From positions 62,001-126,000 of the forward strand of contig NZ_JAALJI010000020.1 of the NCBI RefSeq assembly GCF_011064595.1: 64,000 nucleotides of DNA. Direction: 5' to 3'. A program made the position numbers and the translations under genes. The notes under the pieces are model-generated. The model saw only the letters and a list, made by a program, of their open reading frames with translations. It did not search any database and was not told the origin of the DNA. This stretch comes from Paludisphaera soli (lineage in GTDB: Bacteria > Planctomycetota > Planctomycetia > Isosphaerales > Isosphaeraceae). Below, piece after piece: positions 24,058 to 39,925 of the stretch. Each line of letters starts with the position of its first letter. Position 1 is the stretch's first letter.

Positions 24058-24085
24058 TTGACGGTGGCGAAACGGGCCTTACAAT
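24058..24085 (+). promoter_or_regulatory. Candidate sigma70-type promoter of the nuo operon
   Basis: TTGACG (24058-24063) and TACAAT (24080-24085) are separated by 16 bp. Five of six bases match the consensus in each box. Transcription would start near 24092, giving a ~220-base leader before nuoA. The lysS promoter candidate has almost the same boxes and spacing. Confidence 0.55.
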
Positions 24086-24253
24086 TGGGACCGAGACATC
24101 AAGACGCGGCCCACGCGGGACGCACCCCTTCGCCTCCCGTCGGACTCCTCCATCCAGTCCGTCCGACGCTTGAATCGAGGGTGCGGCTTCGGCGACGTCC
24201 CGATCGGGGACGGCCGATTTCCACGGCTTCCGCGTCTTTTTTCGGCGGGGACT

Positions 24254-24271
24254 TTGTGAAACCCTTCACAA
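24254..24271. promoter_or_regulatory. Putative Rex operator upstream of nuoA
   Basis: The 18-mer TTGTGAAACCCTTCACAA consists of TTGTGA and TCACAA separated by six bases and is a perfect inverted repeat in its arms. This is the known consensus for the NADH-sensing repressor Rex (TTGTGAn6TCACAA). It ends 43 bp before the nuoA ATG and lies downstream of the upstream promoter candidate, so bound Rex could act as a roadblock or cover a nearer promoter that I cannot see. No rex gene lies in the window. Confidence 0.7.
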
Positions 24272-24314
24272 GGTCGGCCGCCGATCCATCGTGCGGGGGG
24301 TCCTTCCAGAGACG

Positions 24315-24737
24315 ATGAGCACCGACTTCACGCCGATCTTCCTGTTCCTGGCGATCGCCGTCGGCACGGGCCTGAGCATGCTGGCTCTCAGCGCCTTGCT
24401 GGGGCCCCGCAAGGAGACGCGGGTCAAGCAGATGCCCTACGAATCGGGCATGGATCCGATCGGGGACGCCCGCCAGCGGTTCGACGTCCGCTTCTACCTC
24501 GTCGCGATCGCCTTCCTGCTCTTCGACGTCGAACTGCTTTACCTGTACCCGTGGGCCGTCGCCCAGTGGAGCGCGGAGCCGGCCCTGGCCGTCGCGAACT
24601 CCGCCGGCGTCGTGCTGACCGCGGGAGTGCCGCCGATCTTCCGGGCGATGGTCTTCTGGGAGATCATGGTCTTCGTGGCGATCCTCACGGCGGCCTTCGC
24701 CTACGCGTGGAAGAAGGGGGTCTTCGAATGGCGATGA
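24315..24737 (+). CDS. nuoA: NADH-quinone oxidoreductase subunit A
   Basis: A 140-residue membrane subunit of complex I with three helices. The conserved stretch [20 protein letters not shown] is followed by [20 protein letters not shown], which carries the D and E residues of the ND3-type loop and helix. The ATG at 24315 is chosen over a GTG eight codons upstream because family members begin shortly before the first helix. First gene of the operon; its stop overlaps the start region of nuoB. Confidence 0.95.
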
Positions 24738-38305: not shown

Positions 38306-39925
38306 ATGACCCTTCAGCTCGCCTATCAGACCGTCCAGCAGACGCTCCTGGTCCTCTCGCCCGAGATCCTCCTGCTGGCGGCGGCCCTCGTCATGATGAC
38401 GGCCGCGCCGTTCGTCCGCGTCTCGCGAAGCGGCTGGTGCGGCGCGTCCGCCGTGGCCCTGGTCGCGAGCCTGCTGGCGCTCCTGGCCTCGCGGGACGTC
38501 CACCCGGACGCCTATGCCGGTTCGGCGGTGAACGACGCGCTGTCCTTTTACGTCCGACTCTTCGTGATCCTGACCGGGCTGGTGCTGCTCGGCCTGGCCC
38601 ACCGCGAGCCCCCCGAGGATCGGGCCGCCGAATTCTTCGGCTCCTTCCTGATGATCCAGGCAGGCGCGATGCTGGTGGCCTCCTCGAACGACCTGATCCT
38701 GCTGTTCGTGGGCCTGGAGCTGGTCAGCATCCCCACCTATCTCCTGCTCTACCTGTCCCGAAGGACGGCGACCACCCAGGAAGCGGCGACCAAGTATTTC
38801 TTCCTGAGCATCTTCGCCTCGGCCTTGCTGCTGTACGGCCTGACCTTCCTCTACGGCCTCACCGGGACGACGAACCTGCGGGCCCTTTCGGTCCTGACCG
38901 AGTTGCCGTACGTCCCGCACCTCTCCCTCGGGCTCCTGGCCGTCGTGTTCATCATGGCGGGGCTCTGCTTCCGCGTGGCGGCGGTCCCGCTGCACTTCTA
39001 CGCGCCCGACGTCTACCAGGCCTCGCCCGTCGTGATCGCGGCGTTGCTCTCCTGGATCCCGAAGGTGGTCGGCTTCGTCGCCATGATCCGGGCGTTGACG
39101 TCGGTGCTGGCGTTCAAGGGGCCGCAGGACGAGCTGGTCCACAAGACCGTGTTGCTGTGCTGGATCATCGCGCTCGCCACCATGACGCTCGGCAACGCGG
39201 TGGCCTTGCTCCAGTCCGACCTCAAGCGGCTGTTCGCCTACTCCTCGATCGCCCATGCCGGATATCTGATGGTCGGGATCACGGCGGCCTTCGCCGGGGG
39301 CTCGAATGCGTCCGGGTTTTATTACGGAACCGAGGCCGTCCTTTTCTACCTGGCGGCCTATGCCTTCATGACCCTGGGCGCGTTCGGGATCGTCCTGGCC
39401 CTCCGCAAGGCGGACGGGCACCCGGTAGCGACGATCGACGAACTCTCGGGCCTGGGGTGGAGCCAGCCGGTCGTGGCCCTGGGGATGACGCTCTGCCTCC
39501 TGAGCCTCAGCGGCATCCCGCCGCTCGTCGGCTTCTTCGGGAAGCTCCAGATCTTCGCGTCGGCCTTCGCCGCGACCACCGGCGACGACGCCCGCTCGCT
39601 CCAGCTCCTGGCGGTCCTGGGCGTGCTCAACGCCGCGGTGGGGGCGTTCTACTACCTGCGGATCATCGTGCTGATGTACTTCAAGCAGCCTTCCGAGCCG
39701 GTCCAGGTCGTCGGCGGCTGGCCGGTCGCTGCGGCGACGGGCACCTGCGCCACGCTCTCGATCGTGACGGGGCTCTACTCGACGCCGATCTCCCGCGCCT
39801 GCCGGGAAGCCGCCATCGCCGCCAATGTGCGTCCCGCTGCGGATGGGGAAGCAGCGTCCCCGGCCGTCGCACTGCAAACAAGGGTGGAGGCCGTCTCGAC
39901 AGCCCCGACTCCGACGGCGGAGTGA
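38306..39925 (+). CDS. nuoN: NADH-quinone oxidoreductase subunit N
   Basis: A 539-residue antiporter-like subunit and the last gene of the operon. Conserved parts are LFVGLELVSIPTYLLLYLSR, TTQEAATKYFFLSIFASALL, VPLHFYAPDVYQASPVVIAA and LFAYSSIAHAGYLMVGI. The final ~35 residues are a soluble tail with many Ala and Thr. With it all fourteen subunits nuoA-N are present in canonical order. Confidence 0.96.
   Translation: MTLQLAYQTVQQTLLVLSPEILLLAAALVMMTAAPFVRVSRSGWCGASAVALVASLLALLASRDVHPDAYAGSAVNDALSFYVRLFVILTGLVLLGLAHREPPEDRAAEFFGSFLMIQAGAMLVASSNDLILLFVGLELVSIPTYLLLYLSRRTATTQEAATKYFFLSIFASALLLYGLTFLYGLTGTTNLRALSVLTELPYVPHLSLGLLAVVFIMAGLCFRVAAVPLHFYAPDVYQASPVVIAALLSWIPKVVGFVAMIRALTSVLAFKGPQDELVHKTVLLCWIIALATMTLGNAVALLQSDLKRLFAYSSIAHAGYLMVGITAAFAGGSNASGFYYGTEAVLFYLAAYAFMTLGAFGIVLALRKADGHPVATIDELSGLGWSQPVVALGMTLCLLSLSGIPPLVGFFGKLQIFASAFAATTGDDARSLQLLAVLGVLNAAVGAFYYLRIIVLMYFKQPSEPVQVVGGWPVAAATGTCATLSIVTGLYSTPISRACREAAIAANVRPAADGEAASPAVALQTRVEAVSTAPTPTAE

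Follow-up and report, generated by a model that had tools for sequence, protein, structure and literature searches.

The complex I (nuo) operon of Paludisphaera soli appears to be preceded by a composite control element, in which an operator for the NADH-sensing repressor Rex stands shortly behind an intrinsic terminator. That the 18-mer TTGTGAAACCCTTCACAA at positions 24254–24271 (forward strand) of the window, i.e., the whole 64,000-nucleotide stretch of DNA that was analysed, is a genuine Rex operator before complex I genes is well supported by its match to the consensus, its conservation, and its link with rex, and the composite architecture of operator plus terminator is likewise well supported by sequence comparison. 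It is probable that the two elements constitute a composite leader control, with roadblock-assisted termination regulating the complex I operon. The further claim that DNA-bound Rex gates the intrinsic terminator, such that a DNA-operator-controlled attenuator has been kept for complex I across most rex-bearing Planctomycetia, is given an even chance; we infer the gating step from the arrangement of the elements.

The operator matches the Rex consensus TTGTGAn6TCACAA at 12 of 12 arm positions and the longer pattern TTGTGAAn4TTCACAA at 14 of 14, and it ends 43 bp before the ATG (24315) of nuoA (24315–24737, forward strand), the first gene of an operon whose nuo genes run to about position 39925. 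Within the window, it is alone in having fewer than three mismatches to TTGTGAn6TCACAA, and in genome-wide site searches, which were made with consensus patterns, it is the single exact occurrence of this motif in 7,970,334 bases (7.97 Mb). NuoA was assigned through PF00507 (E = 1.3e-32), and Pfam identified NuoB, D, E, F, G, H, I, J, K, L, and N among the genes that follow. According to base frequencies over 99 loci, the palindrome found across the class extends beyond the published 18-mer: its consensus is ACT-TTGTGAA..TTCACAA-AGT, with the ACT/AGT flanks found in about two thirds of the loci, and the extended site in the window (24251–24274, forward strand) is flanked by ACT...GGT. Such flanks are also found at Rex targets that have no terminator. 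Positions 7 and 12 of the operator are mostly A and T (TTGTGAA..TTCACAA), matching the published Rex consensus.

The genome codes for one Rex, a full-length protein of 240 amino acids (P0002) that comprises a winged-helix and an NAD(H)-binding domain (PF06971 and PF02629) and whose gene is located elsewhere in the genome. Its closest PDB match is Rex 3ikv (E = 3e-49, residues 30–229). The contact residues of T. maritima Rex are Gln46, Arg48, Lys49, Gly58, Arg60, Gly61, and Tyr64 (PMC8836258). In the encoded Rex, Q-V-R-K of the recognition helix and F-G-R-P-G-I-G-Y of the glycine wing are kept, and in a by-eye alignment these stretches appear to correspond to the T. maritima contact residues; binding of the 18-mer by this protein is predicted. 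Among the Isosphaeraceae, rex was detected in 42 of 45 genomes, and the three genomes with no match are assemblies that are 92%, 68%, and 64% complete and consist of hundreds of contigs. Autoregulation of rex found no support, as its 3.1-kb locus contains no site with three or fewer mismatches.

The sequence-only reading had described the 18-mer as a Rex site that fits the consensus in all twelve arm positions and lies 43 bp before a complex I operon, and the coordinates, the Pfam assignments from NuoA onward, and the absence of any other exact match in the genome agree with this description. It had also expected a rex homologue in the genome, which was found, and conservation of the site among relatives. 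When nuoA upstream regions were aligned, the operator proved to be common to related genera and families. All 45 Isosphaeraceae genomes, a set that includes Singulisphaera acidiphila DSM 18658 and Aquisphaera insulae, have nuoA, and 44 are testable (in one, the contig ends too early); the MAG Planctomycetales bacterium 71-10 is a member of the window's genus. The operator precedes nuoA with at most two mismatches in 41 of the 44, and the three genomes that do not have it all belong to one genus (g14). In that genus (L047, L054, L055), rex and the nuo promoter are kept, and the operator and the T-tract are both lost. The exact pattern TTGTGAAn4TTCACAA occurs in 32 of the 45 genomes, with a single copy per genome that invariably lies at nuoA, and in none of the other 13, while its reversed control pattern yields one match across all 45. 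Outside the family, the operator is present at 50 of 52 tabulated nuoA loci, which come from rex-bearing genomes in 14 further families of the class; the additional loci had been gathered from 80 rex-positive genomes.

The operator also follows rex across genomes. In 43 non-Isosphaeraceae genomes reached through NuoA, with a sub-threshold rex match counted as absent, a nuoA operator (at most two mismatches to TTGTGAn6TCACAA) was found in 14 of 16 rex-positive versus 1 of 27 rex-negative genomes (p = 2e-8), and in a class sample outside the family, the exact TTGTGAAn4TTCACAA was found in 64 of 127 versus 13 of 126 (p = 2e-12); both p values concern genomes that share ancestry and are not independent. 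The large family f2 has no member among these rex-positive genomes, and the exact site is rare there. Discordant cases comprise Lacipirellula (L200) and two genomes of family f7, in which rex is present and the nuoA operator is absent, as well as one locus (L164) with an operator and no rex found in its assembly. Many of the compared genomes are metagenome assemblies, and the phylum-wide pattern scan reached few rex-bearing families. In the plasmid collection, nothing similar was found.

The range of Rex targets appears to differ between families. In the Isosphaeraceae, the exact motif is found at nuo only, and sites matching a relaxed pattern elsewhere in these genomes have no consistent downstream gene. 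In a Gemmataceae-like family (f3), exact sites are also located before an ActA-like multihaem cytochrome gene (L219, L222, L223, L227, L231), an atpZ-like ATP synthase gene (L230, L232), and the type II NADH dehydrogenase gene ndh2 (L233). The names ActA and AtpZ are partly read from sequence, Pfam giving cytochrome c7/c3 domains for the former and a sub-threshold match for the latter, and are thus putative. The actA, atp, and ndh2 sites have no T-tract, and several carry a -10-like box directly before the operator; hence, the T-tract is not part of the Rex site itself. The P. soli genome also contains a second, divergent nuoA (about 40% identical) at G000:C2:89494-89727 (L062, L251), which apparently marks a second complex I locus, and second copies occur in most Isosphaeraceae. 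This locus was considered as a further Rex target and rejected, since the best site in 12 kb has four mismatches. A palindrome close to the Rex motif, TCGTGAAATCATTCAC[GA]A, is shared by two Singulisphaera species (L242, L243) and in both overlaps the start of the corresponding glycosyltransferase-like gene.

The nuo promoter is predicted well upstream of the operator. A sigma-70-type element, TTGACG-N16-TACAAT, is located at 24058–24085 (forward strand) with 10 of 12 matches (0.0 expected in shuffles), and transcription would be expected to start near 24092. Its -10 box ends 168 bp before the operator, in agreement with the best candidate of the sequence-only reading, which had been placed about 170 bp upstream of the site. 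Sister species carry this element 151–168 bp ahead of the operator, and it is present also in the operator-less genus g14. Across the predicted promoters, the distance from the end of the -10 box to the operator is most often 44–67 bp; it reaches 120–168 bp in the genus of the window and in certain relatives, and a small group has only 10–18 bp. At 0 of 99 loci was there an acceptable predicted promoter whose -10 box falls within or beyond the operator. Of the two modes of repression that had been suggested, a roadblock fits the arrangement, whereas a second promoter is unsupported.

Between this sole recognisable promoter and the operator lies an element that resembles an intrinsic terminator. 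A U-tract at -17 to -10 from the operator, usually after a hairpin, is present at 78 of the 91 operator loci of the two main sets (40 of 41 in the Isosphaeraceae and 38 of 50 in other families); as it is absent from 13, it is not obligatory. Over 99 non-redundant operator loci (redundancy removed at 80% identity over 80 bp, the sets sharing ancestry), the frequency of T is 75–81% at -17 to -11, 22% at -18, and 2% at -8. This positional profile is free of any search window and is better evidence than the standard deviation of the T-tract position (1.28), which was measured inside a limited search range. Whereas the start of the T-tract is fixed near -17, the distance from the operator to the ATG is widely spread (sd 26).

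The hairpin is supported by counts and by pairing. Terminator-like hairpins were identified at 75 of the 99 loci versus 16% of shuffles, and the stem ends at -13 to -23 in 72 of the 75. Moreover, complementarity of the 3' arm is higher for its own leader than for the leaders of other loci (12.3 versus 8.0, p = 2e-10), and no comparable excess for the own leader is seen with control arms taken 40 or 60 nt upstream; thus, the stems vary in sequence yet stay paired within each locus. The U-tracts are often interrupted (e.g., TTCTTTT, TGTTTTTT), which would fit leaky terminators. At two loci (L234, L238), the neighbouring genes are divergent (aminotransferase, YbjN-like) and the terminator is still present; insulation against an upstream gene was rejected as a sufficient reason for the element, because it is kept beside these divergent genes.

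The window's own short local hairpin is decayed. The T6 tract occupies 24237–24242 (forward strand), its first base lying 17 bp before the operator in line with the T profile of the 99 loci, and the segment that runs into it, CCGCGTCTT (24230–24238, forward strand), is predicted by RNA folding to pair over a long range with AAGACGCGG (24101–24109, forward strand) near the predicted transcript start. These segments form the 3' and 5' arms of a closing (terminator) stem, and their pairing would join promoter and terminator in a single unit. Five of five species retain the closing stem, which is nearly invariant and thus without covariation support; a few inner pairs covary. The fold of the whole leader has an energy of -71 kcal/mol (z -3.4), and the four sister species have z values of -3.6 to -5.9. 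In the window's genus, the leader (24092–24244) is a long, closed multibranch structure ending in the U-tract, and it could contain an additional RNA signal; a search of Rfam gave no family match for it.

The presence of the terminator varies with where the operator lies with respect to the promoter. Among loci with a promoter score of at least 9 (78 of the 99), the T-tract is found at 0 of 8 proximal operators (10–18 bp behind the -10 box) versus 69 of 70 distal ones (Fisher p = 4e-10). The bimodal distances suggest that the operator stands either where initiation can be blocked or far downstream together with a terminator. Since proximal operators occur in families f1, f3, f4, and f5, the arrangement has probably been altered at least twice. 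Where the nuo genes of one genome are split (G012; L240, L060), the operator of nuoA is proximal, immediately following the -10 box, and a second Rex operator, accompanied by a hairpin and a T-rich tract, precedes the separate nuoF operon. Proximal operators without a terminator and distal operators with one provide natural pairs for comparison.

According to the proposed mechanism, transcription would start at the single upstream promoter, and the leader RNA would form the hairpin, followed by the U-tract. When NAD+ is high, Rex would occupy the operator, 17 bp past the start of the U-tract, and block RNA polymerase; the blocked enzyme would dwell in the U-tract with the hairpin behind it, which would lead to release of the transcript (roadblock-assisted termination). 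When NADH rises, Rex would leave, polymerase would pass the leaky terminator, and complex I would be made and re-oxidise NADH. A protein roadblock halts the RNA 3' end some 10–15 bp short of the site it occupies. In Streptomyces avermitilis, Rex leaves a footprint of 27–29 bp (PMC5355995), which implies that Rex covers about 5 bp past each end of the 18-mer. Given this footprint and stopping distance, the RNA end would be held between about -19 and -10, within the U-tract or just as it is entered, which is where intrinsic termination would take place. If termination proceeds by forward translocation, a tight block could hinder release, and repression would still result from stalling. The roadblock first suggested for this site was a plain one, lacking the conserved terminator directly before the operator; when this terminator is taken into account, the likely mechanism becomes roadblock-coupled termination.

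A plain roadblock is nevertheless compatible with most of the sequence observations. Polymerase would be stopped by Rex and removed by Mfd or through backtracking, and the terminator, itself unresponsive to Rex, would merely lower the flux of polymerases and so prevent them from jointly displacing Rex. CcpA, CodY, PurR, GalR, and LacI are known to act as roadblocks, which a polymerase passes more readily when others trail behind it (reviewed in PMC10310618). However, a plain roadblock alone leaves the sharp edges of the T-tract and its start at -17 unexplained, all the more as the operator-to-ATG distance varies with an sd of 26, and this explanation is considered possible but rather unlikely. 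It is improbable that the terminator is an independent attenuator for some other signal (RNA structure, translation, or a ligand), with Rex acting separately on the same leader. Such a device would suit the window's genus, whose leader is long and strongly folded (z -3.4 to -5.9 in five species), but the predicted leader upstream of the hairpin leaves too little room for a sensor in most families, where the -10 box ends 44–67 bp before the operator; moreover, the spacing is locked to a DNA site, and a match in Rfam is absent.

Alternatively, the hairpin and T-tract might serve to terminate transcription of the upstream gene, with an unrecognised nuo promoter at the operator being subject to classical Rex repression. 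Insulating terminators are common and promoters in high-GC genomes can escape recognition; yet a well-formed promoter stands between the upstream gene and the terminator, 0 of 99 loci have one in or after the operator, the element is kept beside divergent genes and absent at proximal-operator loci, and, in the window's genus, the predicted start of the leader pairs with a terminator arm. This reading is accordingly held to be very improbable. A last alternative concerns the protein rather than the terminator, as CRP-type sites share TGTGAn6TCACA and the palindrome might be bound by a CRP/FNR-type protein (e.g., HcpR-like) instead of Rex. The presence of the site follows that of rex across genomes, and positions 7 and 12 are mostly A/T, as in the published Rex consensus, both of which make a CRP/FNR-type binder scarcely credible. 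Roadblock-assisted termination by Rex is the reading preferred here.

Attenuators are normally read at the level of RNA, by a ribosome, a riboswitch, or an RNA-binding protein, and the usual place of action of a repressor is the promoter. If a terminator and an operator are held at fixed spacing across many families, attenuation and repression would be joined in a simple switch, in that a DNA-bound protein would set termination. Leader attenuators such as trp/TRAP resemble the nuo leader, since a terminator between the promoter and the first gene decides expression; they differ in being controlled through RNA, whereas the partner conserved in the nuo leader is an operator in the DNA. The findings also give a picture of planctomycete complex I as tied to the NADH/NAD+ ratio, together with ATP synthase, alternative complex III, and NDH-2 in some families. 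The Rex operator and the link between Rex and nuo are of kinds that are already known. In the literature found, no paper joins Rex, planctomycetes, NADH, and regulon, and an earlier description of the planctomycete operator alone is possible; likewise, no description was found of a repressor whose operator keeps a constant distance from an intrinsic terminator.

The nearest case in that literature is Bacillus subtilis sivA-rocG, in which a leaky intrinsic terminator is followed by a CcpA site that has been proposed as a roadblock to read-through (PMC4348106). It differs from the nuo leader in being a single locus with a SigL promoter between terminator and operator, and neither fixed spacing nor joint conservation is reported for it (PMC4348106). 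The roadblocks formed by CcpA, CodY, PurR, GalR, and LacI are similar in that a repressor bound downstream of the start halts an elongating polymerase, but the passages considered from that review describe no intrinsic terminator at fixed spacing (PMC10310618). The Rex operator of Staphylococcus aureus, TTGTGAAW4TTCACAA, has arms identical to those of the site in the window; the Rex targets there are anaerobically induced genes rather than a complex I leader, and a coupled terminator goes unmentioned in the available part of the source (PMC2883068). A likeness in target kinds is seen with S. avermitilis, whose Rex regulon comprises nuoA1-N1, atp, cyd, ndh2, and rex-hem, with nuo, atp, and ndh2 experimentally shown (PMC5355995): the operator motif, TTGTGAANNNNTTCACAA, is alike, and so are the targets, namely, nuo and, in the Gemmataceae-like family, atp and ndh2. 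The two systems differ in that the exact sites of the Isosphaeraceae are confined to nuo and also in position, as the nuoA1 operator was footprinted at -42 to -16, over the promoter (PMC5355995), whereas the operator described here is located downstream of both promoter and terminator.
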